Below are positions 11,470-63,800 of a stretch of 64,000 bases of DNA, in pieces. Source of the stretch: Hirudinaria manillensis (Eukaryota > Annelida > Clitellata > Hirudinida > Hirudinidae); NCBI GenBank assembly GCA_034509925.1, contig CM067527.1:11335001-11399000 (forward strand), given 5' to 3'. The position numbers and the translations under genes are program-made. The notes below the pieces were generated by a model. The model saw only the letters and a list, made by a program, of their open reading frames with translations, was not told where the DNA came from and did no database searches. Numbering within the stretch: position 1 is the first letter of the stretch; every line of letters starts with the position of its first letter.

Positions 11470-12836
11470 GTGAGTCGGTGATGAATCGTTTCAATCACTC
11501 ACCTGGAATGGTCTCATGAACATCTGTGCATTCAGTCTCAAGAGTCGAGGCTTTCCAACCGAAAGCCAAGGAGTTCTTAACGCTCATGCTAGTTAAGCTC
11601 CATTAACTAGTGATTCAATGATGCGCTACATAAATTTCAGGTCGAGGAAAACTCACCTGTTGGGACCATCGTTGCCCTCATAAAGGTTAAAGGTCAGGAG
11701 AAGGAGGAGGCGTTTCTGGCAGACTGCGTCCTTCCATCATCACCATCGTCGTCGCAGTCTTTCCAGCTGAGCGAGCACGTGATCAACGAATTCCTGCTGA
11801 GAACTGGAAAGGTTTTCGACCGAGAGGTGGAGCCATCTGTGAGGCTGATCATAAGATGTCACAGGAACTCGGGGTCCTCGGCATCGTCGTCATCTTCGTC
11901 GTCGGCGAATCGATATCAGACGAAAAAAAAGTCGAGAAATCATCCGGGCGATAAAGAAGAACGACGGAGCGCCAACAAGAAAAGCGCCAAGAGCGCGATC
12001 AATGCGGACGACAATCGATTCAAGCGCGACGGAGGTCGAAGCCGCCTCAGCAAATCCCGTCCTCGTCGTCGTCGTCATCCTTCTTTTTTCCCGACTCTCC
12101 GTCTTCAGAGGGTGACAGGATATCTCCCTGAAGAAGTGACAAATTCGAGAGTCAACGGTGGCGATCATAAAGACGATTCTCAGCACTTTTCATCTTCGCG
12201 CTCGTCACCTTCTTTCCATCCGCCCAAAAACGAGAGCAAGAAAGACGACTACTCCAACTACGCCGACGATGAAGCCCAAGGCAGCCTGCTCTCGCCTGCG
12301 ATGCAACGACGACCACAACAACAACCACCACAACTACATCAACGGCATTCGCATCGACCCGACAGAAACGTCAAGAGAAAAGACAGCTACAACAACGACG
12401 ATGGCGACGTCGATGACGACGACTACGCGGAGGTGACGGTCGACGTCGTCATCGCTGACGTCAACGACAACCGACCAATGACGAGCTCGGATTCGTACGA
12501 AGCAGACGTTGAGGAAAACCTCCAACCGGAAGTGACGATTTTCAAGATGGCCGCCTGGGATCCGGATGCCGGAAATAACGGACTCCTGTCATACTCCTTG
12601 GAGCTGCAGTCCCCTTCCGGGAAGGATGGAGTGACGAGTGAGTGAATGGTTGAGCAATCGAGTTATTGGGTACGAGACTCAATGAACAATAGAATCACTA
12701 ATCACGTGAATGAATGAGAATTGCCAGCTGGAAAATGAACTGCTATCTACTTCCGGTTATTCATCATGGTTATCATCATCATCGTCATCATTATCATTGC
12801 CACCTTTACGGCCGTTTCATCATCACTACGGGCTTA

Positions 12837-12927
<91 letters not shown>

Positions 12928-32906: not shown

Positions 32907-33380
32907 TCGATGGAGCATAATAAAAGTCTGTTGCTTTGAACATGAAATTCGTGAAATTCCATATTTGCATCCGTAATTGAAAAAAAAATTTATTAACTTC
33001 ATTTCTAAGCTATTTATATAACAACTCAGTTTATATAATAATAACATTAATAATAATAATTATAATAATAAACGATGTTTATCATGGCCAAGCCATAATA
33101 TCCAGGCACATACATCCGATGGCCGTAGTGGAAAATTTGTTCAAAGTCTGGACATCAATAAGAATACAGAATGAGGTCTCACGTATGTGACGCAAATAAA
33201 TCCCTGGCTGGGGCGCCAACCCTTGCATCTGATACGCCGTCAGAGCCGACACCCCCCTTCAGATTATTTATGCTGCTGGCGATAATAAGGCCACTAACGC
33301 GGGTAATTTTCATAGCTTATTTATGAAAATTTATTTTTTATGAGTTGTAATCTAATAATAAAAAAAAAATCTTGAGAAAT
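32723..33380. other. Spacer, nothing recognised
   Basis: Contains a short AAT array at about 32857-32906. The segment 33075-33300 is non-repetitive and of mixed composition but shows no open frame or family motif. Confidence 0.55.
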
Positions 33381-33383
33381 CTT

Positions 33384-34150
33384 GGTGAGTGAGTGAGTGA
33401 GCGAGTGAGTGAGTGAGTGAGTGAGTGAGTGAGTGAGTGAGTGAGTGAGTGAGTGAGTGAGTGAGTGAGTGAGTGAGTGAGTGAGTGAGTGAGTGAGTGA
33501 GTGAGTGAGTGAGTGAGTGAGTGAGTGAGTGAGTGAGTGAGTGAGTGAGTGAGTGAGTGAGTGAGTGAGTGAGTGAGTGAGTGAGTGAGTGAGTGAGTGA
33601 GTGAGTGAGTGAGTGAGTGAGTGAGTGAGTGAGTGAGTGAGTGAGTGAGTGAGTGAGTGAGTGAGTGAGTGAGTGAGTGAGTGAGTGAGTGAGTGAGTGA
33701 GTGAGTGAGTGAGTGAGTGAGTGAGTGAGTGAGTGAGTGAGTGAGTGAGTGAGTGAGTGAGTGAGTGAGTGAGTGAGTGAGTGAGTGAGTGAGTGAGTGA
33801 GTGAGTGAGTGAGTGAGTGAGTGAGTGAGTGAGTGAGTGAGTGAGTGAGTGAGTGAGTGAGTGAGTGAGTGAGTGAGTGAGTGAGTGAGTGAGTGAGTGA
33901 GTGAGTGAGTGAGTGAGTGAGTGAGTGAGTGAGTGAGTGAGTGAGTGAGTGAGTGAGTGAGTGAGTGAGTGAGTGAGTGAGTGAGTGAGTGAGTGAGTGA
34001 GTGAGTGTGAGTGAGTGAGTGAGTGAGTGAGTGAGTGAGTGAGTGAGTGAGTGAGTGAGTGAGTGAGTGAGTGAGTGAGTGAGTGAGTGAGTGAGTGAGT
34101 GAGTGAGTGAGTGAGTGAGTGAGTGAGTGAGTGAGTGAGTGAGTGAGTGA
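33384..34150. repeat. Long (GTGA)n tetranucleotide array
   Basis: Almost perfect GTGA units over roughly 770 bp, the longest simple repeat in the window. There is a GCGA variant near 33400 and one phase break (GTGAGTGTGAGTG) near 34007, which divides it into blocks of about 620 and 140 bp. The minus-strand SLTH frame is an artefact: the unit has no stop in that frame. Confidence 0.98.
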
Positions 34151-36260
34151 CTCGGCCTGAAACTGATACCTTATCATTCCATCCTGTTTGCTAAATCCGT
34201 TTCATCCAACTACATTGAATGATGATCTTCTAAGCGCCTTCCTTTGTTAAGAAACAGTGGAAAAAATATTCCCAGGGGATTGAATCGATAAATTTTAAAA
34301 TGGAAAAAAAAATTTTAAAGCGGAAAATATAAATATCTTTTCCTTTTCGAATATTTTGCATTAAAGTGAATTACAATTAAGGCCGATATTTTGTCTAATT
34401 GACATTAAATGACCATATTTTATCTTTGTTAATTATAACAATAATATTATTAAACTAGTTATTGTTATTAACATAACTAGTGTTTAAATCGTTACTAGCA
34501 AATGTGGTTTTGATGATGATGATGACGATGATGATGATGACGACGATGATAACGATGATGATGAAGAAAATAATTTCCGATCTAATGCACGGTCAAAAGG
34601 TAGTTTGCATTAACGAATCCATCGTTCATCGAGATTTCTATTTGAACTTTTTTTTAAAATTAAAATTAATTAATTTTGAAAAATTTAAAAAACTTACCAT
34701 CATAAATACTGTTATTATTTACCTATTTATTTCTCATAATGATGACAATAATTAAAAATCTTAAAAAATTACTTACATCTTTAAAAACAAAAAAGCCAAC
34801 ATTGATATTTTACATTAATACTAATTTTTATTATTAATTGTAATATTACTATTAATACTGTTATTATTAATGATTTTAATTAATAATATTTTATTAATAA
34901 TAAAATATTATTAATAATAAAATATGAATATAAATTACTATTACTATTAATATAATATTACTATTAATAATATTGTTATTCTTAATTAATTAAAATCATT
35001 AATAATAACAGTATTAATAATATCAATAAAAGTATTTAGATCTGGAGATTCAAATGTTTACGAAAGAAATTATTATTATTATTATTATTATTATTTTATT
35101 TTTATTCATAAAAAACCAAAAAAATTCAAAAATGTCAGAGGAGGACACGTGACACAACAAACGAAAAATATATTATTTAATATAATTTAAAAACTTTTTG
35201 AAGAGTTTTGTGCTCCCAGAATTTCCAAAACATTAAAAAGAAAATTTAATTTTTAAAACATGCAAATTAATTCATAATTCATAATTTTGGTCGAATTTCT
35301 TAAATTTATTACAAATTAATTCCAATTTAATTTAAAAATAATTATTTAATTTTAACAAATAAGTGATAAATTCACAAAAAGCCAGCCAAATTCGAATTTT
35401 CATCGATGCGTTTATGTTAAGTACATGATTAATATTAATGAAACGTTTAATAATCCATGAATATTGATGAACTAATTAATTAGCATTCATTAGCTTTTAA
35501 ATTATTCCTCTCTTCCAGATAAAAAGAATCCCGCATCGTTCTACATTTGAAATTCAATCCCGTCTTTTCCTGTATTCATCAGCGTCATCGTCATCACCAT
35601 CTCCATCGTCGTCGTCGTCGTCTTCGTCATGTTTGCATTATTATTATTATTATTATTGAAAATAATATTTAATTCATTTAATTATAATAATAAAACAATT
35701 GGAGTGTTAAATTATTATTATTATTATTATTATTGTTGTTGTTCTTTTTAATTAACAATAATAAATTCATTAATAATAATTATTAATATTATTATTATTA
35801 TTAAAACCAATTTTCATCTTCATTTTCTAAATTAATTGCCATTTTGCCAGGAAAAAAAACGTTTTTTTGAATAATTTCGATTTTATTGCATTTAAATGGA
35901 TGAATATTTGATTAAAATATTAAAATATGAAAATATTATTTTTTCAACAAATCATGATAATTAATTATCAATTGCCGGCCAGTTGATATTCCCATCTTAC
36001 TGCAATAACAGATTAGGTAGAGAGATTAGGTTTATTATCTATATAATAATATCTTACATGTATATACATATAATTATAAAATGATAATAATCTTAATAAT
36101 TACTCACATTAAATGTAAAAGAAAAAAAACAGTTCTTTGATGTCGACTTTCGAAAGGAATTATTTGACAATTATTTTAAAAATAGTTATTATTTAAAATA
36201 AAAATCCGCAACTTTCAAATAAATGGAATAATTTGAAAATTATTATTAAAACATTACTTA
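34151..36260. repeat. AT-rich DNA with a 34-bp perfect inverted repeat
   Basis: Arms at 34851-34884 and 34985-35018 are exact reverse complements separated by 100 bp. GAT units lie at about 34513-34565, CAT/GTC at about 35585-35630 and ATT tracts at 35070-35095 and 35638-35735. No gene recognised. Confidence 0.75.
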
Positions 36261-42572: not shown

Positions 42573-43922
42573 TCAGCATTTGCCAAATCCAGGAACGCAT
42601 TTCATTACTATTCGATTACCCCTGAATTCACGCTTGTCAAATAAAAGATTGCAACAAAGTCTGTCTCTTCTGCTCCTAAATACCACCAAACCGGCTCCAG
42701 TACTGATACCTCTCCTTTTGGCTATGCAAGCTTTCACGACGGGTACTTCGGTAGAGAAATAGGCTATCAACTCTTCAGCAGTAACGTCAAAGTCTAAATT
42801 GGTGATATAGATGGTGCAGTCAAATTCACGTTCAGGAATGCCTAATCTCTGGGCAAGCAGGAAACCTTGATCTTTAACGTCGTGTTTATAATCATAATCA
42901 TAAACCTCATCTTCGACATATTCGTTATTTTCGTTATTTTCGTCATATTCGGCATTTCCATAAGAACAATATTCTGGTTCATGTCCAAGTACACATTTCG
43001 TACAGAAATCTCTAGTTTCTCTATTATCTTCTACATCCCCTTCAAGCTCAACTTCCTCAAATATTTCAAAAATTTCTATACTGTCACCATAAGTATATAA
43101 TAAATTCGGATAAAGTATTACACCAGGCCTATCAACAAAGGCCTTATCAACACGCTTCTTAATATCAAATTTTGTGAAGGAATCCATACTTTCAAATATG
43201 ATTTCTCCAATTCCTGTACTCGTACCATCTTTGTTGTAAAATACATTTGCTTCTAAGACTTCCCACCATTCACCAAAATATTTTTCAAGGTTTTCCGCAG
43301 TCACATCGTCATCTAAATTGGTTATGTATATATGTGGATAGAAAGGATACAAACTGCAGTCATGGAACGAAGTTCCTAAAAATCCGCTGATTTTCGGGCG
43401 AGCGTTATTAACACAACTCTGATTCCTAAACAAACATTTGAAAAGTTTTCCATGTGGAAAATTAAATTCTACAATTGCTTTCCCCATCGAACTTCCGTCT
43501 TTGTTATGCAAAACGGTTGCTTTCTTTACTTTGAGAGGAGAGCGATAATGCTTTTTCAGATCTTCAGCTGTGACATCAAGTGGAAGATATTCCATCACGA
43601 CAGAAGAATGACGGAATTGGATTTGTCTTTTGTAGTCAGATTCTATGCTAAGAATCCTTCCTTTGAACGATGCATTCTTAAATTTTTCCTCGAGAACCTG
43701 TGCATCTTTCACGTTGAACAACATTACTTCTGCCCTTCCTTCGCTGAAGCCAGATTTGCAAGAAATAAATATGTCTTTGATTGGAACAACATCACCAATA
43801 AAATTTTTCAATTCCTTTTCTGTTACATCATAGTGTAGATCATAAATGTGCAACAGGCATTTCTTACTTTCGTTTTCAATTTCATTTTGAATCTCAAGTA
43901 CTAACTCTTCATATTTTGCCAT
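42573..43922 (-). CDS. Four-RRM RNA-binding protein, intronless
   Basis: A single 449-residue frame predicted to bind RNA or act as an RRM scaffold. Four RRM-like units are visible: about 22-95 (LLHIYDLHYDVTEKELKNF), 106-178 (VVMEYLPLDVTAEDLKKHY), 196-273 (IYITNLDDDVTAENLEKYF) and 368-442 (IYITNLDFDVTAEELIAYF). Each has the RNP2-like strand followed by D-V-T-x-E-x-L at helix 1. RNP1 is weak: units 2 and 3 have NKDG(S/T)S(M/T)G before beta 3, and the aromatic RNP1 residues are largely absent. An acidic, Tyr-rich linker lies at 282-350. The near-identical openings of units 3 and 4 suggest internal duplication. It is intronless among intron-rich genes, so a retrogene or young expanded family is possible. 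Fragments of a paralogue lie at 44.4 and 46.1 kb. No orthologue name is justified. Confidence 0.8.
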   Translation of the reverse strand: MAKYEELVLEIQNEIENESKKCLLHIYDLHYDVTEKELKNFIGDVVPIKDIFISCKSGFSEGRAEVMLFNVKDAQVLEEKFKNASFKGRILSIESDYKRQIQFRHSSVVMEYLPLDVTAEDLKKHYRSPLKVKKATVLHNKDGSSMGKAIVEFNFPHGKLFKCLFRNQSCVNNARPKISGFLGTSFHDCSLYPFYPHIYITNLDDDVTAENLEKYFGEWWEVLEANVFYNKDGTSTGIGEIIFESMDSFTKFDIKKRVDKAFVDRPGVILYPNLLYTYGDSIEIFEIFEEVELEGDVEDNRETRDFCTKCVLGHEPEYCSYGNAEYDENNENNEYVEDEVYDYDYKHDVKDQGFLLAQRLGIPEREFDCTIYITNLDFDVTAEELIAYFSTEVPVVKACIAKRRGISTGAGLVVFRSRRDRLCCNLLFDKREFRGNRIVMKCVPGFGKC

Positions 43923-44114
43923 TTTTGTTAATTTAAAGTTATAAAATAGGAATTCGCATGATTTTACATGGTCGCGAGGCTTTGACGTGCTTTAAAAAGA
44001 TCCAAAATATACTGCTTAAAATTTATATTTCAAGAAATTTCATTGGAGATTTAATTAATTTTAGTTTATGTTTGCATATTTTATGATCACATCTTCCCAA
44101 CTGAATCTTAAAAA

Positions 44115-48624: not shown

Positions 48625-50510
48625 CTGTGCAATCAGGAGACGTAATCTTTAATGTACTAAGAAATACTACACTTTGTTATTGTTGTAGTTTGAGCTTTTT
48701 AAAATTTTCCAACTGCTCCTGCTGCATCTTCCTCAAGGCTTCAGCTTTCTCCTGGTTCAAGTCAAAATAAAATAAAAAGCTGTTAATTGTATATTTAAAT
48801 AAAATCCACAAAATAATCACACCTATATCTGCTATAAATTCCCACTATTATCAATACCACAGTCATCACAACCTGTCTTCTCCTCAGTTCTTCCAGTTTC
48901 TGTCTCTCCATCATTTCTGCTGACCCGAGCGACCTCTGCCTCTCCTCTCCGGTCAGAGCCATCTGCAACCTCGCAGCCTCCTGATGGAGAAGCGCTCGAA
49001 TGTGTTGCTCCCTGACCCCGCCGATGGCCAATCCCTCCAGCTGATTGGACTGATCTCAGTTGAGGTTCAAACCTCCCGTGAGTAAGGATGAATCCATTCT
49101 TTGTTGCTGCATCTCGAGTGCCAGGTACTGCAACTGCTCTAGAGCATGTGCAGTAATCGGTCGAGACAACTCCAAGCCCATTAGACCTTTGTCCCAGCCT
49201 GGAATTGCAAAAGGAAGAACATTTTACAAAACTCAGACTTCTTTATGAGAATCTTTCATCGTTAAAGTTGGCGATCGATAATCTGTCGCATTTGCATACC
49301 TTTTGAGGGATACGAGCTGACGTCATTGGCCACCTTCCAGAGAGAGGATGCCACTTGCTGAGGAATGGACGTCTGATTGGCTTGGAATAGGTAGGAAGCT
49401 GTGGTCACAGCCCTGCTTGACCAAGAGAGTCATGTTGAAATACCCCACGCTGAACCATTCGGACATCTGAAGTTGAGTGAAAGGACCTGAAAGAAAGTAT
49501 AATTTTCTGTCATGTCTTTGATCTCTTCAATGGATATCTTGTATCTGGTTACAGTCATTAATTACCGTCATAATCATCATCATCACCACTACCCATACTA
49601 ACCATGTATGTCACCCTGTGGATCTCTGTAGAACCACTTGTAGGCATCCTCGTGCTCGGGCGGGACGAAACCCTTGATGAAGTTCTGTTGCGAATGTTGT
49701 TGGCATTGTTGTCGCACATGCTGCTGGTTAAAAATTTGCTGCTGTTGCTGAGGAGGAAGAAGAAACTGTTGTTGCTGTTGCTATTCCAGCAAGAACTTTG
49801 ACTCGATGTGCTTTGGAAAGATGGCAGTGAAGTCTGCGGCAATGACAGAGTTGCCAAATGTTTTCTGCTGCGAAGACACCTGAAGAATAGCTTCGCCGGA
49901 CATCGGTTCATCCTCGCTATTGTTCATGAGGCTGTCGACGAGGCTCTCTACATCGAAGGACATGCCGGCATAAAGACTAGAAATCTGAGGCTCTGGGGCA
50001 GCCGCGTTTTGGATGACCTCGGGACTCGATCTGGCATCGAGGTATTGGTTGGACGTTTCTGAAAGACACCTAGATTCCTCTGGTTCAGCTGTGGACACTG
50101 ACTCCACTTTCTGTGTTTCATTCTCATCTGAGGAACTGTATTTCTGTCCACTCTTAACATCCAAGTAGTCTCTCGAGGCATCTTTGACTTTGGCTCGTCT
50201 TTTTCCTCTGCCTCGACCGAGGGGTTCCCGCCATCCTCTTTGGAATTCTTGTCTGCCTCGTCCGTGCTCCACTCGGGAAGTTGCTCTGTGCAATCAGGAG
50301 ACGTAAGTAATCTTTAATGTACTAAGAAATACTATACATATTATCATAAACATCATTAGCAGCAGCAACTGGCATTACCAGATTCATCCTCGTAGTGATT
50401 GTTCTGGGCGTGGGATGAGCTAAAAGACCTCCTAAAGACCTTCTCCTTGAATGAATCATCAGAACCACGATTTCTGCTGTTCTCCCAGGGCTCTCTCCAA
50501 CTCCTATTGG
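48625..50510 (-). pseudogene. GIGYF: Disrupted GIGYF (GYF-domain) gene copy
   Basis: GIGYF proteins bind proline-rich partners through a GYF domain and work with 4EHP in translational repression. Exons recognised: about 50379-50510, 49603-50285, 49300-49486, 48873-49198 and one starting at 48751. The joined GYF core reads YKWFYRDPQGDIHG then PFTQLQMSEWFSVGYF then NMTLLVKQ, with intact GT-AG introns; LPEWSTDEAD lies upstream. The copy is broken: a frame change near 50200, TAG at 49781-49783 in a Gln run, a frame change near 49400, and TGA at 49056-49058. The 5' exons are missing where a LINE and a hAT piece lie. Retained introns argue for a DNA-level duplicate. Assembly error is an alternative for the frame changes but less likely for two stops. 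Confidence 0.8.
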
Positions 50511-50514
50511 ATGG

Positions 50515-51045
50515 GATCAATGGCAAAAGGCAACAATGAAGAACATTCGCATCTTTAACGGCTTTAAGGCTAGAGGGTGGGTGGCGACGTTGTATGAGGC
50601 GATGGAGGTATGGCGGACTTGACGTCGCCTGTATGCGATATGTGATGGTTGATATTTTAAATGAGATTCGGGCGGCGATGGGTAACCAGTGCAGTTCTCT
50701 CAGGCACTCAGAGCTGTCAAGACTCGGGTTAAGTAGCACGAGCTTGGCTAACTTATTTTGAATGCCTTGAAGGGATTGGATCAGGGAAGCAGATGATCCA
50801 TATAGAAAAGAGTTGCAGTAGGCGAGATAGAACCAGCGAGTGGGCGAGTGCAGATGTTGTGTCAACGGAGAGGAGTGGGCGGATATGCCGTATAGCCCAG
50901 ATGAAATGGTTGCAGGCTTTAACTATGGAGGCTGCATGTTGTCTGAAGCTCAAATGAGAATCAAACGTGACCCCAAGAAGTTTTAGAGTAGCCGAGGAAG
51001 GGAGAGTAGTTCCTGCTATCTCTATGGAAGACGGAGGGTTGAGAG
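50515..51045 (-). mobile_element. LINE fragment, 3' part of reverse transcriptase ORF
   Basis: Minus-strand segments LLGVTFDSHLSFRQH, YCNSFLYG and LRELHWLPIAARISFK are typical of the region after the catalytic core in Jockey/CR1-type non-LTR reverse transcriptases. A frame change at about 50820-50860 breaks it. The 5' part is missing where the hAT end begins, and its 3' side abuts a GIGYF exon. Confidence 0.75.
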
Positions 51046-51440
51046 TAGTGATCGACCGGGGCGTCAATTTTAGCCGGGGCCGGGTTTGGGGGAGCGGTTG
51101 CCGGGGGCAGCCGGGACCGGGGTTGAAGCCGGGGTTGGGGAGGCAATCTATAATAACGTTAACTAACGGTGCTTTTATTCTCTAAACATGTTGTAAACGT
51201 CAAATAATGTATAAGTATATTTATTATGTCAAAGAGATTCTGTAAAACCTGTAATAAAAAAAATTTTCACAACGACAACTCTTCCACGCTCCGTTGTGAA
51301 AACTTAGAAAAACATTAAATCGTTGATGGAAACTCATGAAAATCAAATCTTATTGTGACATTCGATACATTTGAAAGTGAATTTTTGTGAAAAATCAAAG
51401 TGGTCTAAAAGCATTGTAGACAGATTTCACAGATTTTCAA
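51046..51440 (+). mobile_element. 5' end of a hAT transposon
   Basis: Begins TAGTGATCGACCGGG and stays closely similar to the complete element at 56.8 kb for about 300 bp, then diverges near 51352. It includes the GC-rich CCGGGG subterminal repeats and a BED-finger-like segment (RFCKTCNKKNFH…H) that keeps both N-terminal cysteines. The 3' end is missing, so it is truncated. Confidence 0.75.
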
Positions 51441-51487
51441 TGATCACCATAATAACCAATTGAGCTTGACCACTTGACTTATTTTTC

Positions 51488-54400
51488 TTATTTCTTATTT
51501 CTCTTTGGATTTGACTGACTTCTTGTTGATGCCTTTCTTTTCCCTTATAATAAAAGCAATTCCAAATTTAATGCAAACTGGCTTATTTTTAAATAAATGT
51601 TAAACTCACCTTTTCTAGAAGGTGCATCTTCATCTTGAACCTGGAATAGAAAATACTTTAAATTTTAATAAATGCTACATAAAGAGAAATCTAATCGATG
51701 GAACAACTAAAAATTTCATGTATCTCATGCAGCTATATAACTAAAAATTCATGGACTAACCTCTGGACCAGGAACATAACCGTAGGTTGTGTAAATCGAC
51801 CAAATGAAATCGGCTAGCAAAAAAATTTAAATGTAATTATTCAACCAAACCAAAAATTTACTTATTTATTCATATACATCTCAAGAAACAAAATATTGCA
51901 AAATTCAAGAATATTACCTTTCTTATTTCCCAACATATCAGATAGAACGGCAAGCCTTGAGATACCATCTTCATTTTCTTTATTGAAATTATTTCGCATT
52001 TCTTCCAATTGTAAAGCCATCTGAAAATTCATCAATTTACCAGCGTGACTCAACTTATTATAAACTCATTTGACCAAACAATTCTTCAAAATCTCTAAAA
52101 ATCTGAGTAATGAAAAAATATAAAACTCCTCACATATTGCGAGTACATCGATATTTCTTTCCCCCTAAACTGAAAGATTTCAATGCAAATATTATTAACA
52201 CAATAATTATAAATTCTGATATTGTGGTTTTCTTAATTAATCTGCTAAATTAATATAAGTCACAAATAAAACACTTACAATAGATTCTGTTGCAGGTGCT
52301 ACCAAAGTGCTGAGGTTCTCAATTCCCAGCTGGTATTTTGCAACAGTAAAAAGTCTAAAGAGTATGCTTGACTGCCATCCTTTGCTAAAACAAATTAATT
52401 TTATTCAATTTCCAAAACACCGGAGGTGCATTCTTATAGATGTCCTCAAGAGTAGACATGCATTCATGGAAGTGAAACTTACCTTGATTCTGAATTTGGA
52501 AGGTACGCAAGAGCCAGGATGATTACCCGGAGGTGGTCAGCGACGATCCTACTTGACACGTCCACTGGTTTGATGCCACCTGGTGTTATGGCTTTGAGGG
52601 ACCTCTAAAATTGCAAATGCAAAGTACTTAATGTAAAAAATGGATCTTTGATATTACTATTATTATTGTTATTATTATTAAAACAATGATGCGTAATGAA
52701 CCAGGTAAAAAAATTTTTCAAAGAAAAAATCCGCAATTTTTACTCTTGATATTTCCCTCATCAGAGGAATGAACGGGATGCTTTCAAACGGTGATGCCGT
52801 GCTTTTGGATCTTGCCAAATGCTCCAGGTGAGCCATTGTTTGGGAAAGCAGCCTCTTTCCTTCCAATCTGAAATTATATTTTAATCAATAATAATAGCAT
52901 TATTATTTTATTTATTTAGATTACAAATAAATTGAAATGATTATCATTATGTAAACAAATCATCAAAGATTAAAAGCAACAAAAAAGCGAATATTACCTA
53001 ACAAAATTTAGTGACCATATAATATCAAGTGTGTTTCTTGGTTTAATTGGGTAGGACAACAGACACGACAATCCAGTGATCTTAGGATCTGCCTCTTCTT
53101 GGTGGATGTTCTCGTCTTTCAGTCTATAATTATTTATTTATATATATAAATATATATTTATAATCACATACAATCAGTTAGAGACTAATCTAAACTTGAA
53201 GCTTTTCCATCAAAAATCATGCAAACTATTTTTAATTTTAATATTAAAATATAAAGACGTACCCAAATTTTCGTAAACAAATCTTTAGTTCAAGATTGGG
53301 CCCTCTTGTGCTGTCTTTTACTGTAATGACAATTTTTGAAGCGTCCAGTCCCAGAGTATTTATCAGGAAATCCAAAATGTCGTTCAAAATGATGTTCTAA
53401 AAAGTAAATGTGATGTCTATCAAGAATGGAACTTAATAGAAATGATCATAAAATCCTTTTATATCAATGCAATCCAATTTAACATAAATAAGATGAAAAT
53501 AAGTCACCCACTTTGTTGGAATCAAAAGAATATGATTCAAAAATATTTGAGGCGGATAATGTATGGACGTCTTCCTCAAAACTTCTCAACTGAGCTTGGT
53601 CTTTCACTGATAATATTCTCCTAAGCCCTATTGTTGGAAAGTCAGTCCTCTTGTTTTCCAGCTCCTAAAAATCAAAGTTATTAATATTTTAAAATCACTT
53701 CATTCAGTTAGCAAAACAAAAACAGAAGCAAACTTTAATAGTAGACAAAAGGATGTCTTTATAAAACTGTCGTCCACACAATATCGGATTCGTCAAGTAA
53801 TTTGTCGTGTAACCTTTGGCTTTGAAAATCTTTTCTATTCCACTATAGATGTTCTCGATGTTGTAATCAGCTAGTTGTAATCATGGTGGAATTGATTAAA
53901 TGCAAACTAATACTTTATATAATGTTAGTTGATCATTGAACATTTGAATTGTCCTAAGAATGTTAGTTAAAAATTCTGACGAATCTTACTCGGCATTTTG
54001 GGTATGCGCTCCTTCGTGTCGAGTGAACTGCCTTCGTTCGAAGTTATGATGTTTGATTTACGGTCGGGTAAATTTCTTGGAGGATCGTAGCATACTTCAG
54101 GAGTGGAACGTTGGGCGGGATTGTATGCACGGAGGGGAACCGAAATGGTTCCATGCTCACTCATATTAGGTGATTTGCTTTCGTCACCATTGTGGTTCAG
54201 CAGTGCTGCTTCAGAATCCGACCTCTGAGTGAGATTGCATGGAAGGAAAGGCTTTACATCTTTGAGCACATTGCTTTCGTCACCATTGTGGTTCAGCAGT
54301 GCTGATTCAGAATCCGACCTCTGAGTGAGATTGAGTGGAAGGAAAGGCTTTACATCTTGGAGCACATTGCTTTCGTCACCATTGTGGTTCAGCAGTGCTG

Positions 54401-55216
54401 ATTCAGAATCCGACCTCTGAGTGAGATTGAGTGGAAGGAAAGGCTTTACATCTTGAAGCACATTCCTTTCGTCACCATTGTGGTTCAGCAGTGCTGCTTC
54501 AGAATCCGACCTCTGAGTGAGATTGCATGGAAGGAAAGGCTTTACATCTTTGAGCACATTGCTTTCGTCACCATTGTGGTTCAGCAGTGCTGCTTCAGAA
54601 TCCGACCTCTGAGTGAGATTGCGTGGAAGGAAAGGCTTTACATCTTCAAGCACATTGCTTTCGTCGACGTTGTTTGAAGTCTTTTCAATAGCTTCCTTCC
54701 AGTCGTTGTAGTTCTTGGCAGTAATGGCTTCTAGGCTGACGACCTTCTTGTTGCTCTGAGTGACCTGAAAATTATTCTCATTTGGTATCAATTAAGTCTC
54801 AAATATTTGTCACCTTTCAACTTTGAGAAGCCAGTGCATGAGTGAAAACAGAACCCTCTAATGAGACAAATGAATGGGATGAACCACTCAGTTCAGAACA
54901 AATGATTCCTCAATTCAAACCTTGAAGGCAAAGTCCCTGGTTTCCGTGCCACTTTGATACGGAGTGAAAGTAGATCCGATCAATTGGTAGGAGGTCAACA
55001 GCTTGCTTTGATTATCGTCTGCAATTAAACAAATTATGCAAATCAAAGTCATAATTAATTACATAATTGGACCTCTATTACACGACGAAAGAAACTTTTG
55101 TTACTGTTATAATAATTACAACTACTACTATTACTGACAGTAACAATCATCAATGTCAGCAAAAATCAAAGAAATGCAAATTAAAATTCATTTTGAGATT
55201 TATTATTATAATAGCA

Positions 55217-55275
<59 letters not shown>

Positions 55276-55667
55276 CATCATCGGCTAACAGACACCAAAC
55301 AACCTTCATAGCACCAGAGTCGTCCTCTCGACAACTTGAACCACCTCATCAGCCACTGCCTGGGGTTTTTCTAAAGAAACAGAAATTTAATGTTAGCAAC
55401 TACTCATTGTCTCCAGTTTTCCACCTCTAGGAGTTTATACCAGGTGCAGACACAGACGATTTGCATGGACATGGAACTTGCAAACAATACTAATGTCGAA
55501 GTTGTTGTCACGGTCATCATACATGTAGTAGTCACATTAACATAATCATCAGCAAAACTCTACGAGGTTTAGGATCATTTAATGAACAATCAAGAGTAGT
55601 GGCCTACCTCAACTTCTTCTATGAGCCATCCTTCCATTTCAGAATGTGGTTTTGCTAAGCTAAGCAT
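51488..55667 (-). CDS. PH domain, 32-residue repeats and AlaRS-like pseudoenzyme
   Basis: Sixteen exons, all in phase, give about 726 residues: 55608-55667, 55304-55370, 54921-55018, 53990-54764, 53734-53870, 53512-53664, 53263-53396, 52998-53123, 52744-52867, 52483-52604, 52279-52384, 52134-52169, 51918-52020, 51761-51813, 51610-51640, 51488-51543. Residues 11-103 form a PH domain (MEGWL, PRQWLMRWFKLSRGRLWCY, C-terminal helix Trp97). Five 32-residue repeats span 112-271. Residues 335-698 follow the AlaRS class II order: KIFKAKGY, GLRRILS and NIFESYSF (motif 2), LGLDASKIVITV, IIWSLNFV, MAHLEHL (motif 3), RIVADHLR, WSIYTTYGYVP. The motif 3 Arg (GLER) is His here, and the GPCGPCSE loop has no counterpart. 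The protein ends in a basic tail (KRKASTRSQSNPKRNKK) with no editing or C-Ala domain. Inference: a catalytically dead synthetase paralogue directed to membranes or partners. The start may lie further upstream, since CAG precedes GTGAATATG. Confidence 0.75.
54177..54656 (-). repeat. Five in-frame 96-bp tandem repeats
   Basis: Each unit encodes 32 residues beginning NV(L)xDVKPFLPxNLTQRS and ending NHNGDE(S/R). Units 3 and 4 are identical in protein and units 2 and 5 differ only at the last residue, indicating recent expansion or gene conversion. Each carries an N-L-T sequon; this matters only if the protein enters the secretory path, which is not expected. Confidence 0.95.
55215..55275. repeat. 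(ATT)n microsatellite in an intron
   Basis: About 20 ATT units inside the second intron of the PH-AlaRS-like gene. Confidence 0.95.
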
Positions 55668-56783
55668 ATTCACCTGATTTAGCTGTTGACATGAAAAGTA
55701 TTTTGATGGAACATTTAAGATTTGTTACAAATGACTCTGAATATCCTTTTATACTTCATAAAAGATTAAGTTTTTAAAACCATAGAGATCTATAATCAAA
55801 ATCCACCTTTAGTCAGCGACGGCAGAGCGGTTATAGGGTTTAGGCGATAATTTATAAACATAAACATAAACATATAACAAATTTTTGGAAAGAGGAGATG
55901 ATAACCTTTTATTCTTAAAAGATTTTAATTTACCTTTTTATATCAATTTTTATTAACGAAAATTCAATAAATTTATTGCACAAGGAAAAATATTGCTTTA
56001 TATATCATTTATAAAATGATGTATAGGCTTACTGATTTCCAAAGTTTCTTAGTGGATATAATTCTCTTCAAGGATGTCTGACAGGAATATCGCACGAGGA
56101 GATGGGAAAAACCACATTCCGAATTTCTGGAGCACTCGAGACGCCTACATTTCCATTAGTATTGCATTATTTTCCGACCGGCAGTGTTTGGCCTTTTCCA
56201 ATGCATCTGGAAGGGAAGCGTGTGAGGCATTTTATTGAAGGGACGCAATTCAGAGGATTACAACGAGGAACGCATTGGGGATGGGAGAACATTTGCGGAT
56301 TTAAAGCTGGGGACAGGGAGCGCCATTACCCTACTCATCCACGTGATATTTAAAATATCAGAAAATTTAGAATAAAGAATATGCACGATGACTGGGAAGA
56401 AACAGATTTAATTTATGGAAATGGAAAAAACTGTCAGCCAAGGTCAATCCAGGTTCCGACGCATGCCTTCCGCCTCTTTGGTATTTTAGATCCACCCAAC
56501 CAGATGTCGGGTAAGAGGGGGTCCGGCCAGAGATGCGAGGGAAAGACGAGACCGGGATAGGAAAGAGTACCAGTCCCGTTGGAAAGTGGGTGGACGATGG
56601 AAAACAAATATGGCACGGTTTTGTGTGTCCATGCTGTCACAATTTGCCGTTTCACGATGTACTTCCATTGCCTGCTTTTAGAGGTGAATTCGTTGAAAAG
56701 GGTGATTTATCGCACTACAGGCGTTATTATTGATATCATTATTATCGGTTGAAAGGTGAAGTCACGATCGAACGCGCCGAGTA
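55668..56783. other. Region upstream of the PH-AlaRS-like gene
   Basis: AT-rich to about 56050, then mixed composition with plus-strand frames of 83 and 66 codons (56102-56353, 56533-56733) that match nothing I know. It may hold the promoter or upstream exons of the minus-strand gene. Confidence 0.4.
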
Positions 56784-56791
56784 CCGTCAAC

Positions 56792-57956
56792 TAGTGATCG
56801 ACCGGGGCGACAATTTTAGCCGGGACCGGGGCCGGGACCGGGGTAGGGGGAGCGGTTGCCGGGGGCAGCCGGGGCCGGGGTTCAGGCGGGCCGGGGTTAG
56901 CCGGGGCCGGGGTTGAAGCCGGGGTTGGGGAGGCCATCTATAATAACGTTAACTAACGGTGCTTTTATTCTCTAAACATGTTGTAAACGTCAAATAATAT
57001 ATAAGTATGCTTATTATGTCAAAGAGATTCTGTAAAACCTATAATAAAAAAAAATTTTCACAACAACTTTTCCACGCTCCGTTGCGAAAACTTAGAAAAA
57101 CATTAAATCGTTGATGGAATCTCATGAAAATCAAATCTTTGTAAATACTAATCGATTACTGTTTTGTGAAGGCCAAAGTGATGAAAGTTAAACGGTAATT
57201 TTTTAAAAACTCATAGTTTTAAGGACATCATTCCAGGTTCCAGCCGATGATGTTTATTTAACTCCATCGAGTTAAGGCAACTTTCTCAGGCTCCTTTTGA
57301 TGGGAGGGTACCTGCTTCTTGTTCAGGAACAGAGGAGGGTCATTCAAGCAAGGACAACGACCTTTGGGAAGAAGTTTTGAAGAGAAGAAGCTTTGAGAGA
57401 AGAAGCTTCCGAAATTACGGGAAAGAAAGCACCCGAAGCAGAGAGGGAATTGGAGGCTTACCTTTCAAAAAAGCGCATAAATAGAACGGATGACCCACTG
57501 GCCTACTGGAAAATTTACAGGAGCGAGTTACCAGGCTTGGCGAAGCTGGCAAGGATTTACCTAAGCCCACCTCCCAGTTCAAGTGATAGTGAACGGGAGT
57601 TTAAAGTGGCACAGTCTATTCAAAAAGGGAGAATTAGACAGTTGCCCAAAAATGTTGAAACTTTAGTATTCATTAAGTATAACTTAAGAGCTCTATCGTA
57701 CTCCACTAATTTGCCGGCTGTACCTGAGGACTTTAACTCTCCGAACGATATATTTTATGATTCGTCGGATGATGAATACATTTTATCTAAGTTGACAAAG
57801 CTAAAAATTAGACTTTTGTTTACCCCCGGCTAAACCCCGGTTGAATTTAAGCCGGGGCGGGACCGGGGCCGGGGAATGTTAAAAAGCCGGGACCGGGACC
57901 CCGGTGGTAAAAAAGGCCGGGGTTCAGCCGGGTCCGGGGTCCCCGGTCGTTCACTA
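56792..57956 (+). mobile_element. Complete non-autonomous hAT element
   Basis: Length 1165 bp. Terminal inverted repeats TAGTGAWCGACCGGGG (16 bp, one mismatch) are flanked by an exact 8-bp target duplication CCGTCAAC at 56784-56791 and 57957-57964. Subterminal regions are full of CCGGGG units. Inside are a BED-finger remnant in which the second Cys is changed to Tyr, and the transposase C-terminus; the catalytic centre is deleted, so it can move only if helped in trans. Confidence 0.92.
57393..57833 (+). pseudogene. hAT transposase C-terminal dimerisation domain
   Basis: The 146-codon frame carries the hAT dimerisation signature: ERELEAYLSKK, DPLAYWKIYRSELPGLAKLA, YLSPPPSSSDSEREFKVA and LPKNVETLVFIKYN. 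In full-length hAT transposases this domain mediates dimerisation and closes the RNase-H-like fold; here the preceding catalytic part is absent. The frame runs up to the 3' subterminal repeats. Confidence 0.85.
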
Positions 57957-58235: not shown

Positions 58236-58720
58236 ATTTTTAGTCCTGCGCATATGAAATAACGATAACCAACGTATTAACATGTATTCGTAAATTATGT
58301 AGTAAATACTTAGATTACAGATGGAATTTCATTTTCGAAGGTGAATATGGAGATATAACAGGAGTAAACAAAGAGGTTTATTCCATTCTTTCTCAAGAAC
58401 TGCAACTACATTTTTTAGATATTTGGCAAGGAGACCCTGTAAATATAGTAGGTACTAAAATGAAGTACACTTATTCACCCAACGGTCTCATGCCCAAAGT
58501 TAATGGGAACATCAAACATTTAGAAATGTTGGGGAAAATCTTTGCTAAGGTGGTCAAGAATGGGTATTTGCTCGACATCCCAGTAAGAGACGAACTTTTT
58601 CAATTATTGGTGGTAAGAAAAAGCTCCCATCTGAGTATAAAGTACTTCGACATGGTACAAAGTTTGATTCTTTATTAAACGCCTTCAAAAGAGTAATCAA
58701 ACTTTTTGCACCAAAGCGGG
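58236..58720 (+). pseudogene. HECT-type E3 ligase N-lobe-like fragment
   Basis: A plus-strand frame reads FIFEGEYGDITGVNKEVYS, ILSQELQ, GLMPKV, LEMLGKIFAKVVKNGYLLD and IPVRDELFQLLV, the order and spacing of a HECT N-lobe (E-GE-G..G...E, GLxP, LGK..AK, LLDxP). A possible acceptor TTTTTAG precedes the open frame near 58236; after LLV either a GTAAGA donor or a frame change to KKLPSEYKVLRHGTKF follows. The C-lobe with the catalytic Cys is not in the window. It lies head to head with the minus-strand TCAF-like gene. Gene fragment or remote exon cannot be separated. Confidence 0.5.
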
Positions 58721-58775: not shown

Positions 58776-60205
58776 TCAGGCAGGAAAGGCCTGAAATTCA
58801 AGGTTTGCGATCTTTTTCAATCCTCCCTCGGATAGTGGTAGATCCCAGAAAATGGCTACTGGAGCCAAGTTCAACTTCGTCTCTTCCGAAAAGATCAAGA
58901 ACCACAGATCGATTTTATCTTGATCGTTCTTTGGCTTTTCAGATGGATTTAATGTCTGATATCGTCTGAAGACGCGTTTGTAGGCGTCCCATTTGAAACA
59001 GTGAATTAGCTGAGCATAGGTGTGCAAAGCCATTCCTGCCTCCATTTTCCATTTCGAAAAGTCTGCCCCAGATTTCAGATAAATCAAAGCTCCCTTCCTC
59101 TGCTTCATCAACCACGAATGAGTCCAGGGATCGATTCCGCAGATGACGCTCATGCCGTACAAAGTGAAGATGTTCACCGTCACTTCGAGAGTCCCGTCAA
59201 ACGTCCACTCGCTCTGCTACATGTTGTGCCCAATCTCGTGGTAAACCCCCCAGAAAGCAGCCGATTTGAAAGAATTTGCACTCAGGAGAAAGCTTTCTTT
59301 ATTAGATTCGGCTACATCCAAATGAGTTACGATGGGATATCCGGCGTGCATGTATCCGTGAGAGGGTTGGATATCGGCTACTTGCCACATCTTGCGTTCC
59401 TTATCGATTTGAGTCCCTCTAAGATCACGATACGCCTTCAACAACTGGTCATACAAATCCATAACTTGGGTTGGATCATCGATATTTCTGATCGAAGAAG
59501 ATGGCAGAGTCACTGTGACATATTTTCCTGAAATGTCTGCCCACAATCCGGGATCGCATCGACTTTCTTTGAGGGATTTCCATTGCTTTTCGATCATTTG
59601 CACGAACGCGGAAGAATGTTTTGGGGGAAGTTCTTTGAGTTGCCTGAAAAGATCCACTTTGTCCGTCCACCTTCCAATCTCTTGTGAGGCATAGCCACTC
59701 AAGTTGGCTTCGCTGGCCTTGCTCAGCTCGGGCGCATATCCGGGACCGTGTGACTTTGAGATTTCTTTGGAATATGATATGCCAACTCCTAGCAAAATGT
59801 TCGTGTAAGCCATTTCGTTCGGCTTCTTACCTGGATTGCACTGTATGTAACCCCACGGAGTAGCCGCATGGACGAATGATCCTCCTTTTTAATGTATTCT
59901 TCCACTATTTGAATGGCAACTGACTCCCTAATGCCAGTGCTCATCAGGATGTCGAATGTTTCCAATTCTTTCGCGGTTTTTACACCTTGGTTCGAGTCCA
60001 AATTGAGAATTTTCACTTTGTTGGGGAGCTCTTTCCTGGTCAACCAATTCCTAACGTTTCTGTAGAGAATTGAATTTTCAAATGATCCATTCAGGTCACT
60101 TAGTTGATTGCCATAACCGCTGTGTGCGAAGACGAAAATCCGACCTTTGCCAAGTTCGGCAGCGGCCATGATGACATCTTCTTCGTTTCGTCCCGTCAAG
60201 ATAGG
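58776..60205 (-). pseudogene. TCAF-like protein with M60 peptidase domain, disrupted
   Basis: TCAF proteins bind TRPM8 channels in vertebrates and share a gluzincin M60-like domain. Segments in order: AAAELGKGRIFVFAHSGYG, FVHAATPWGYIQCNPGK, then MAYTNILLGVGISYS, WGVYHEIGHNM (HExxH zinc motif) and EVTVNIFTLYGM. One frame requires a base change at the AAAAAGG run near 59886 (EEYIKK to GGSFVHAATP), and TAG at 59217-59219 interrupts the reading directly after HEIGHNM; TAA at 60206-60208 bounds it upstream. No introns are seen over 1.4 kb and the N-terminus is missing, since TRIP4 ends 680 bp upstream. A truncated, possibly retrocopied pseudogene is most likely; uncorrected assembly errors are the alternative. 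Confidence 0.7.
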
Positions 60206-60882: not shown

Positions 60883-63800
60883 TCAACACGATGCTTGCCA
60901 GTCCAACATTTTCTTAGCTCCTGCATGTATATGCTTATCAAGAGTATCTGTAAAATGGCAATTCATAGATCACATGCTAGAATAGTTCTCAAATAAAGTA
61001 TCGATATCTGTATTGATAACAATAGAATCTAGTTTTTTAAAGATAAAATGAATCTCACAGATTTTGTGCTGCCCCCTGATTGGCAGATTGATCTTCATTT
61101 CAAGAGGTTCTTCACAGATGAAAACATAGGGTGACTCTGATTCACCAGTCGTGTACTGATGGATAAAGAAATAAAGAATGATTAGTACGGCCATAGTGAC
61201 CTGCATGCATCATGCGTACTCATGACCGAATTTATTATGCTAATCGCTCTCTATGTGTGCTAGCAGTCGGTCGATCAAACAGACTTATTAAATATTTAAT
61301 CTTTTTCATAACTAGATCATGATTAATAATAATAATAATAATAATAACAATAACAACAATAATAATAATAATAAAAATAATAATAATAATAATAACAACG
61401 ATAATAATAATAATAATACTGGTAATAATAATAACAATTTGGTCTGTTAGAGTGGCACGTGTCCGGTGGACTTCAAGACCATCATGCCTGTACACATCGG
61501 CTACTCAATCCAAACCAAATGCCGTACAAAATGAACCTCTCAAAAGGTTCATCTCTGACAACTCAATGAGAACCTCACCTTGATCCTGTACTCTTCTTGT
61601 GGCAGGCAGTCCGTCACAACCACCCTACCCAAGATGACGCCTCGTTGGTAGCTGGGTGGAAACTTTAATTTCTTCCCTGTGGTGGTATTTTTTTTTACAA
61701 CAACGATAGTTAATTTCAATAAGGAATCAAGGAAAATAATTATTTAAAAATTAATTAAAAACTCGATAATTAATTAAAAATAATCACCTAACGATTTAAG
61801 ATTTGAAATAATAAATCATTGACCAAGTTAAAAATTAACCAACCGGGATATAGGGCTCTGTACATGGCCTCAACATTCTCTACTTCTGTAGGGTCAGGAA
61901 TTTTGCTTGTGGAGGCTATCCACAGGGGACCTCTATGATTGGTGTACCAGGTCCTACCCTCGTGCCTTTGGGAATAGAAGGATGATTTTTTGTTTTAGGT
62001 CAAAACAAAAGCACACGATTACAAATGTCCTCATTTTGACAAATTCGTTTTGCTTCGATTTAATAAAATTATGAATATTAGGTTAAAAAAATAAAAGAAA
62101 TTGCATCCCACTTTTTAATGCCGGCCACGAGCAAGGAAGCCCAAGGCTGGTGCATGCTGAGAGCCTTTCCCTGGTCGACGGTCATCTGTAGGTCACCGTC
62201 CTGAATGACCTGCAGATGGGATTTGCTTCTTCCATTGCATTCAGACAATGGTAGGGATGCTTCTGAGATGAACTAAAAGCAGTAAAAAGTAAAACGTTAA
62301 AATATCAAATGTTCCAGACAGATCAATGATCGATTGATTGATCAATAAAACATTCACACAAATCGCATCAAGAAGCTGATGATAATAATTATAACAATGT
62401 TTGTTATATATACATATAACCATTCTTCATCATCAATAATCACCTACTCAAGCAAACTCACCTCTGCCTTTAAGTTCGAGGGTTCGAATCCGATCCCGGT
62501 AACTCCTTCTCCGATCCTCCTCTCGTTCCTTCCGTCCGTTCCAAAGTTGGCAGCCATGACTGCAGAGTCCTCCGTGGCATCGTAATTCTCCGATTCCGTC
62601 TCGAAAACCCTCTTGTTGGCAAAGTCAAAGGTCACTTTGCAGGGTCCGAGTCGTGAGGCGAACCTCTGAGCCCTCTGCTCTTCTTCCTTTTTCTGGAGCA
62701 GTTTCTTTTCTTCTTCGTTCAGCCAGTTGTTGCCGGTCGTGGTGAAATAATCATTCTCGTCATCAATGACCCGCGTCCTCTTCACGCTGGCGATTCGAAT
62801 TTATCGAGATAATTAATTAACTAATTTAATTAATAAATGAAGTGGTTGATAAATAAAAGTTATTTACAATAAAATGTATTAATTCAATTGAAATTAATTA
62901 ATTAATTAAAAAAACGACAAGATGATTCTCAACGACGATGCCGACCTGTTCTTGTCGAACTCGAGCAACTTCTCCTTGTGTTCGATGGCCCTCTTCCAGT
63001 CCTCGTCCTCTGCATCCGCGTTCGAATCCTGTCGAGGGACGGAGGTCGCCTGAGGTCGCGCCATCAGCTGATCTCTCAGCTTCAGGCCTTTCTTGGAGTT
63101 CGAGGAGAGTATCTGCTCTTCTCGACTGCTGCACACCTGATGACGATGAAGACGACGACAATGTTGTTGTTAACAATTTCATTGGCAGATTAACCGTGAT
63201 AATGATAATGATGATTGTACTTGTGCATGCAACACGTTAAAAACGATGAAGCCGAGTAGTTGCTTGGACGACTGGTGTGCAATGAATGGTCACAAAAATG
63301 CTTTAACGTGTTGACTTATTCTTAAGCCAACTAGAATTATTATTGCTTTTAACTACCTATAAAGGTTATCAATGGAACTAATTTGGGCTACTAATGGCAA
63401 AAGCAAAATCAAGAATGATGATGATGATGATGATGATAACGATGATGATGATGATAATGACGATGATGATGATGATGATGATAACTGACCAAATTTCCAC
63501 AGAAGAAGCACGGTCCTGATCCCTCTTGTTCGCACACAATTCGACCGCATTCGAGGCAGTTGTTGACCAAGTCGTGCTTTGACGCTTGACATTCGCATGC
63601 ATGTCTCCCTGCGACGATGCGAATTGTTTGTCATGAATTCAATTATCAAACAAGTGATTAATAATAAAATATTTAATAAATATAAATTCCATTCCATGAT
63701 GTTAGTGATTACAAAGAAGCAGTAATTGAACAGCTTATATCACTGGCATTAAATTATTTTCTGAACAATTAAATATGGAAACCACAAATTCAATTATTCA

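Follow-up and report, generated by a model that had tools for sequence, protein, structure and literature searches.

The DNA analyzed here (the window) is a stretch of 64,000 nucleotides from the annelid Hirudinaria manillensis (assembly GCA_034509925.1, contig CM067527.1, referred to as C2, positions 11335001–11399000), and its minus strand carries, from 55667 to 51487, a gene that sets a PH domain in front of a region resembling alanyl-tRNA synthetase (AlaRS), hereafter the PH-AlaRS gene. Rebuilding the exons from the DNA, on the minus strand of 56500–50500, yielded 16 exons and a single open frame of 726 amino acids that ends at a stop codon, with GT-AG boundaries at all 15 introns. Residues 1–333 hold the PH domain, tandem repeats and a linker, residues 334–726 the AlaRS-like part. 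An earlier reading of the letters (the original prediction) had connected 16 exons without a frame break, and the rebuilt model agrees with it in exon count and coordinates, including the join of 53990 to 53870 that restores codon phase (CCG A joined to CT). The span of the gene also stands, except that its 3′ end was set at 51488, one base short of the last base of the stop codon at 51487. The PH domain is recognized by Pfam (PF00169, residues 10–104, E 1.9e-11, 44.8 bits, cut-off 25.1), and the repeats that had been noted amount to 5.1 in-frame copies of a 96-bp unit.

The canonical synthetase genes, for which the original prediction had proposed a search, are both present outside the window. 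Searches of the 148-Mb genome (23 contigs) with the AlaRS family placed AARS1 on contig C3 (locus L019) and AARS2 on contig C7 (locus L020), and with both genes located there the idea that the PH-AlaRS gene is the AlaRS of the cell was rejected. The PH-AlaRS locus itself was absent among the 14 matches listed by this six-frame search. With residues 334–726 as the query, AlaRS is the sole family listed by Pfam (PF01411, E 0.0024, 16.9 bits, or E 0.012 with the whole protein) and by NCBIfam (E 0.0011, 17.6 bits), and identity to AARS1 is 20–23%. A custom profile of 82 AlaRS rows (AARS1, AARS2 and 80 bacterial AlaRS) scored 26.7 bits, compared with a maximum of 5.0 among 2000 shuffles, and hhalign matched residues 340–694 to AARS1 residues 9–421 over 345 columns (probability 93.6%, score 59.1), whereas 60 shuffles reached 25.4 at most and the sequence read in reverse scored 16.8. 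Almost all of the profile signal comes from residues 540–693; scored by themselves, the 206 residues with which the AlaRS-like part begins yield 0.6 bits, and they are supported by the colinearity of the hhalign match and by the introns.

The introns are the decisive evidence that the AlaRS-like region descends from an AARS1-type gene through duplication at the DNA level, with the reading frame held. Within the AlaRS span there are nine introns, and each has a partner in AARS1, with order and phase unchanged (0, 0, 2, 2, 0, 2, 0, 0, 1). Across three alignments built blind to the introns, six of the pairs fall in the same column, one is off by a residue, one lies beside an alignment gap (1 residue/10 residues) and one is 10–15 residues away; against these six exact coincidences, 200,000 random placements gave three at most. 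Compared with their AARS1 counterparts, the eight internal exons lack 36, 12, 66, 21, 24, 3, 3 and 9 bases, each a multiple of three, which is a consequence of the shared phases and adds no independent evidence. The two introns of the tail have no AARS1 counterpart. Together with the profile and hhalign results, the shared introns establish the AlaRS-like region of the original prediction as a genuine, degenerate AlaRS homologue. The exons of AARS1 and AARS2 were defined for their 5′ halves, and AARS2, modelled to its fifth exon, has the first four introns of AARS1 and none at the fifth, where the comparison ends. By sequence, 56 of 255 residues are identical to AARS2 as a possible parent, compared with 76 of 380 for AARS1. 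A protein tree of 30 rows (27 bacterial AlaRS, every third of the 80, with AARS1, AARS2 and the PH-AlaRS protein) gave the window protein a branch of ~10 changes per site, and it could not be placed. At the DNA level, the AARS1 locus matches the window in nine places, none of them within the PH-AlaRS gene.

What the AlaRS-like part appears to have lost is its active site. Of 134 columns that are at least 95% conserved in AlaRS, 101 could be aligned and 33 are kept. In place of RAGGKHND (motif 2) there is RSF and a gap, with GGKHND missing; GPCSEIHFD has become GLSCLLSYP, and motif 3 (GMGLER) is left as LEH and a gap. The segments that would identify an enzyme, namely class II motifs 2 and 3 and GPCGPCSE, are not found. 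Some residues persist, among them an Arg (AARS1 position 77), the IWNLVF Trp and, in the helical domain, DH.R. To read the G3:U70 pair of tRNA-Ala, AlaRS uses a conserved Asn and a conserved Asp (PMC10036535, in excerpt); these two appear to be aligned with Ser and Thr, the AARS1 columns having been assigned by our own reading. There is no room for the editing (tRNA_SAD) and C-Ala domains, since the protein ends 32 residues past the AlaRS homology, in a strongly basic tail (net +6 over those 32 residues). A genome search with tRNA_SAD returned two matches, neither in the window, and the same search also missed AARS1 and AARS2.

The frame and the core of the fold appear to have been kept. Hydrophobic residues occupy 64 of 88 core columns, compared with 25–39 when the alignment is shifted by 1–8. 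The 361 codons of the AlaRS-like exons include no stop; when their bases were shuffled 20,000 times, the mean was 24 stops and every shuffle had at least one. The G+C content of these exons is 0.40 compared with 0.23 in their introns. The open frame, the GT-AG boundaries, the G+C contrast and the fold core argue that these exons coded for protein through most of their divergence. With its class II motifs eroded, the AlaRS-like part is very likely catalytically dead, and it has the makings of a pseudo-synthetase, as a duplicate of a synthetase in which the catalytic motifs are gone and the frame and fold core are kept.

The PH domain has a separate origin that can also be located. Among the distinct PDB sequences matching the PH part up to E 0.01, seven of eight are PLEKHA4, 5, 6 or 7 and the other is KIAA1914. 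A genome search with residues 1–333 listed six matches, four in the PH-AlaRS gene itself and two in one locus on contig C3 at ~2.036 Mb (L027, C3:2032000–2041999). When exon pieces of this locus were assembled by eye, they matched PH (E 3e-14) and, downstream, TBCA_PH (E 1.2e-17), which identifies it as a PLEKHA4/5/6/7-like gene, a subfamily reported to have one gene in invertebrates (PMC8983885, in excerpt). An upstream WW domain in this locus was not confirmed (best match E 0.13), and TBCA_PH is not among the Pfam matches of the PH-AlaRS protein. The similarity to the PLEKHA-like locus extends through the introns, the three PH introns being 67–81% identical at aligned positions, and the long DNA alignment stops inside the first linker repeat, of which the window gene has its 5.1 copies. 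In the protein, 58 of 98 PH residues are identical to the paralogue, with nonsynonymous (dN) and synonymous (dS) rates of 0.32 and 0.60 and a dN/dS of ~0.5, for a comparison in which the end of the paralogue's exon 1 is uncertain by two codons. Judged by these likenesses, the PLEKHA4/5/6/7-like gene was the source of the PH part, which was copied together with its introns and apparently more recently than the AlaRS-like part. The in-frame residues directly before exon 1 (LNVPSKYFSCQQ) resemble LNVPSKHFSCEQ of the PLEKHA-like locus, so that an additional upstream exon is possible, and the exon 1 donor may lie 6 bases earlier, as the sequence of the paralogue suggests by eye. A match to PI3K_p85B within the repeats (Pfam E 3.8e-5, 23.8 bits, below the cut-off of 27, with no single stretch passing) was ascribed to the repeats themselves.

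As in the AlaRS-like part, the changes in the PH domain include residues of the presumed ligand site. Compared with PLEKHA4, GWLHKQ has become GWLIEE (with E at the place of K) and WKRRWF has become WLMRWF (LM for KR), changes to what we take to be the basic lipid-site residues of the β1–β2 segment, of which one Arg is kept. Apart from that Arg, the basic residues expected of a phosphoinositide-binding PH domain in this segment are not found, and the net charge of the domain is 0, compared with +6 in the paralogue. Both domains of the protein look like folds that have been kept and ligand sites that have been lost.

The introns also suggest the order in which the two parts were acquired. The PH introns align to those of the PLEKHA-like locus with local scores of 108, 124 and 53, whereas the AlaRS-part introns score a mean of 12.9 against the matching AARS1 introns (n = 9) and 12.8 against non-matching ones (n = 72). 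As the PH introns can still be aligned and the AlaRS introns cannot, the duplication of AARS1 is most likely the older event, with the PH domain captured afterwards. Under the proposed origin, the 5′ half of AARS1, encoding the aminoacylation domain and most of the helical tRNA-recognition domain, would have been duplicated as DNA with its introns, and the copy would have diverged to its present 20–23% identity and lost the class II motifs. A segment of the PLEKHA4/5/6/7-like gene, with PH exons and introns, would then have been inserted in front of the AARS1 copy and spliced in frame near the former start of its coding sequence, and the 32-amino-acid linker repeat would have expanded to five copies. 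The product would be a non-catalytic pseudo-synthetase that serves as a scaffold or adaptor, probably for proteins, in which two old ligand-binding folds now bind other proteins and are held apart by a long acidic repeat linker, while the strongly basic tail could confer nuclear or RNA binding. The open frame, the origins of both parts, the homology, the shared introns and the loss of motifs can be read from the sequence; the transcription across the join, the folding and the scaffold role are inferences. Taken together, the gene is probably a two-step chimera of this kind, formed from an AARS1 copy and a PLEKHA-like PH domain and encoding a non-catalytic scaffold or adaptor.

Several observations weigh against this interpretation. 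The AlaRS scores in both libraries fall under the curated cut-offs (30.3 for Pfam and 529 for NCBIfam), and in a genome search with residues 334–726 all ten matches listed were the PH-AlaRS gene itself, AARS1 and AARS2 not being reached. At the join of the two parts, the acceptor at 53870 scores 4.7 (rank 16 of 28), less than AGs at 53953 (7.6) and 53906 (5.6), by splice scores trained leave-one-out on the PH-AlaRS gene, AARS1 and AARS2. These two acceptors would lead into a stop (frames judged by eye), and the gene may thus give a shorter product with the PH part only. Codon usage does not clearly favour the frame, which scores 0.05 compared with −0.12 and −0.02 for the other frames. The dN/dS of the PH part fits relaxed constraint and allows for relaxed or changed constraint since the fusion, and the case for selection on the AlaRS part is made from the frame and fold-core arguments, the count of 64 in 88 core columns relying on an alignment optimised for similarity. 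Further, motif loss is incomplete: two AARS1 residues, Arg 77 and Trp 215, are aligned with identical residues of the PH-AlaRS protein. The likelihoods given below for other explanations overlap with one another and with that of the two-step chimera, and are not meant to be added up.

Among the other explanations, the one that survives best, though we consider it unlikely, divides the locus into two transcription units. One would be a PH-repeat fragment that arose by copying, the other an old pseudo-synthetase gene derived from AARS1, with its own, unrecognized first exon. The apparently younger age of the PH block and the stronger acceptors between the two parts are in keeping with it, as is the retention of the intron after exon 4, where translation would continue for seven further codons to a stop at 53967–53969 and give a PH-repeat protein. 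The AlaRS frame, however, is closed by a stop 10 bases ahead of exon 5, and its first Met comes at residue 528, so that it needs an upstream exon; a separate one would have to lie within the PH exons or upstream of them. For the joined transcript, the donor at 53990 is usable (score 5.8, rank 20 of 30) and in phase.

The original prediction had further suggested that the protein could bring tRNA or a synthetase fold to phosphoinositide membranes, or act as a regulator of the true enzyme. AlaRS dimerises via its C-terminal domain, which is absent here, and pairing with AARS1 is not expected. The PH fold itself is consistent with a membrane-tethered regulator, in which the PH domain would take the AlaRS fold to phosphoinositides and that fold would there bind tRNA-Ala or the true enzyme, and the PH domain of PLEKHA5 has been suggested to bind plasma-membrane phosphoinositides (PMC8458771, in excerpt). 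G3:U70 can still be read by a viral mini-AlaRS in which that conserved Asn–Asp pair is missing (PMC10036535, in excerpt), SLIMP is a synthetase copy with a collapsed site that can remain in an active complex (PMC10570016, in excerpt), and synthetase modules that act on membrane lipids are known (ErdS and LysX; PMC9437257, in excerpt). Conversely, the replaced lipid-site residues and the lost charge of the PH domain weaken delivery to membranes, and the apparent Ser and Thr at the G3:U70-reading positions count against delivery of tRNA, although the viral enzyme lacking both residues reads the pair; that enzyme keeps motifs 1–3 (PMC10036535, in excerpt), which the PH-AlaRS protein does not. Nothing in this analysis points to a role as a regulator of the true AlaRS. 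Thus the architecture of the original prediction stands, with a PH domain in frame with an AlaRS homologue, while its membrane role appears improbable.

It is a shade more improbable still that the gene is a decaying relic, open by happenstance. The low identity to AARS1 (~20%), the eroded motifs, the long branch in the protein tree and the dN/dS of the PH part would all be expected of a pseudogene, and decay of recent onset may be compatible with these tests. The absence of stops, the length changes in all eight internal exons that keep the frame, the intact splice boundaries and the conserved hydrophobic core are difficult to reconcile with a relic of long standing. Lastly, a chance likeness to AlaRS, or another class II-like fold, could be suspected from the library E-values of ~0.001–0.01 under the curated cut-offs and from the PDB search, in which the two top matches are AlaRS at E 0.13 and the next two are unrelated ATP-synthase subunits at 0.28–0.29, but it is rejected as next to impossible by the nine introns in AARS1 order and phase, six of them exact, and by the shuffle-controlled profile scores.

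The two-step chimera can be compared with both of its donors and with described relatives of the synthetases. It shares with AARS1 colinearity over AARS1 residues 9–421, the nine introns and the hydrophobic core, and differs in its low identity, eroded motif 2, motif 3 and GPCGPCSE segment, in the absence of the editing and C-Ala domains and of a start codon of its own, and in the PH domain in front. With PLEKHA4/5/6/7 it shares the PH domain and the alignable DNA of three PH introns, whereas the AlaRS-like region stands in the place of TBCA_PH and the basic residues of the lipid site are gone. SLIMP, a SerRS paralogue of animal mitochondria, is likewise an animal class II duplicate with a collapsed catalytic pocket and fast evolution, but is derived from SerRS, mitochondrial and the partner of an active subunit, with no PH domain mentioned in the excerpted text (PMC10570016). 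The Tupanvirus mini-AlaRS also consists of catalytic and tRNA-recognition domains only, which suffice for activity, and lacks both G3:U70-reading residues, with Thr in place of the Asp, apparently as in the PH-AlaRS protein; its motifs 1–3 are conserved, however, the enzyme is active, and it is no AARS1 duplicate with introns and a PH domain (PMC10036535, in excerpt). Other AlaRS relatives outside the standard enzyme, the amino acid:carrier protein (aa:CP) ligases (PMC9437257, in excerpt) and an AlaRS-like protein of natural-product synthesis (PMC12945691, in excerpt), differ in being described as working enzymes. In helminths, alanyl aminoacyl-tRNA synthetase-like genes occur in several copies and other odd domains are found on synthetases (PMC6498573, in excerpt), with no mention of a PH domain or pleckstrin in the excerpted main text.

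A fusion of a PH domain with a synthetase was not found in the open-licence literature searched with synthetase and pleckstrin or PH terms, in agreement with the original prediction, to which no described PH-AlaRS fusion was known. The word 'pleckstrin' is absent from the main text of PMC9437257, PMC6498573, PMC11580382 and PMC7373986, and 'PH domain' from that of the latter three. As far as seen, a synthetase paralogue with an added domain is of a known kind, and the pairing with a PH domain and the loss of both ligand sites are unpublished. AlaRS-like copies in animals were already known from helminths (PMC6498573, in excerpt), and within the literature searched the novelty lies in the pairing with a PH domain and in a history that can be traced. 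Tentatively, and with a little less than even confidence, the gene may represent an unreported animal PH-pseudo-AlaRS adaptor, in which two domains stripped of their ligand sites were reused together as a scaffold through two ordered steps, with both donors identifiable in the genome. Dead copies of tRNA synthetases that have taken on new jobs are known from few well-studied cases, and much of the path of change is hidden in them. Here both donor genes persist in the same genome, and the introns in common prove the descent and hint at which step came first, such that the birth of a synthetase-derived protein can be traced and tested.

Table 1. Exons of the PH-AlaRS gene and blocks related to the PLEKHA-like locus (L027), in window coordinates.
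Feature	Start	End	Strand	Remarks
Second short L027-like piece	55682	55801	−	66% over 148 columns; counterpart ~1.7 kb further upstream in L027
Exon 1	55608	55667	−	First in-frame ATG after stop 55725–55727; PH domain begins
Block apparently copied with introns from L027	54598	55649	−	DNA identity 66% over 1219 columns, including 202 gap columns (68% over 1058 columns with other settings)
Exon 2	55304	55370	−	PH domain (Pfam match, rebuilt model)
Exon 3	54921	55018	−	PH domain (Pfam match, rebuilt model)
Exon 4	53990	54764	−	End of PH domain, five 32-amino-acid repeats, acidic linker
Tandem array within exon 4	54175	54665	−	96-bp unit × 5.1 (32 amino acids, in frame), 96% matching
Exon 5	53734	53870	−	AlaRS-like; corresponds to AARS1 coding exon 1 minus start codon (~46 vs 48 codons)
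Exon 6	53512	53664	−	AlaRS-like; motif 2 region eroded
Exon 7	53263	53396	−	AlaRS-like
Exon 8	52998	53123	−	AlaRS-like; GPCGPCSE segment lost
Exon 9	52744	52867	−	AlaRS-like; motif 3 (GMGLER) lost
Exon 10	52483	52604	−	AlaRS-like; similarity clearest here (DVSSRIVADHLR)
Exon 11	52279	52384	−	AlaRS-like; helical domain
Exon 12	52134	52169	−	Micro-exon, 36 nt; counterpart is a 39-nt AARS1 exon
Exon 13	51918	52020	−	AlaRS-like; helical domain
Exon 14	51761	51813	−	AlaRS homology ends (IYTTYGY vs LYDTYGF on the AARS1 side)
Exon 15	51610	51640	−	Tail, homology not found; placed from splice sites and frame only
Exon 16	51487	51543	−	Tail rich in lysine/arginine, with stop codon; placed from splice sites and frame only

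Directly downstream of the PH-AlaRS gene, at 50356–51181 on the minus strand, is an apparent remnant of a reverse transcriptase like that of long interspersed nuclear elements (recognized by eye, one piece having been scanned with no Pfam match), and upstream, on the opposite strand at 57381–57833 (plus), is the dimerisation region of a hAT transposase (E 1.4e-14). An open frame at 58244–58678 (plus) has a match to HECT below threshold (E 0.029, 14.5 bits, cut-off 23.9). At 33321–34201 (minus) there is a long simple repeat that reads THSL in all three minus-strand frames and is therefore apparently a tetranucleotide repeat. Exons of the Peptidase M60 type at 59217–60205 (minus; E 4.5e-19 for the frame 59217–59888) presumably resemble TCAF proteins, and a TRIP4 exon (TRIP4_3rd, E 2.6e-18) is found at 62444–62800 (minus). 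The frame of 472 amino acids at 42573–43991 (minus) contains four RRM stretches (RRM_1, E 1.5e-25), is apparently intronless and is perhaps a retrocopy of a gene for an RNA-binding protein. Hemerythrin-like matches at 44–49% identity are consistent with a lophotrochozoan source, though no proof of it. Long frames at 9604–17353 (plus) resemble a protocadherin gene by eye, with repeats of the cadherin kind, a membrane-spanning segment and an extended cytoplasmic tail.

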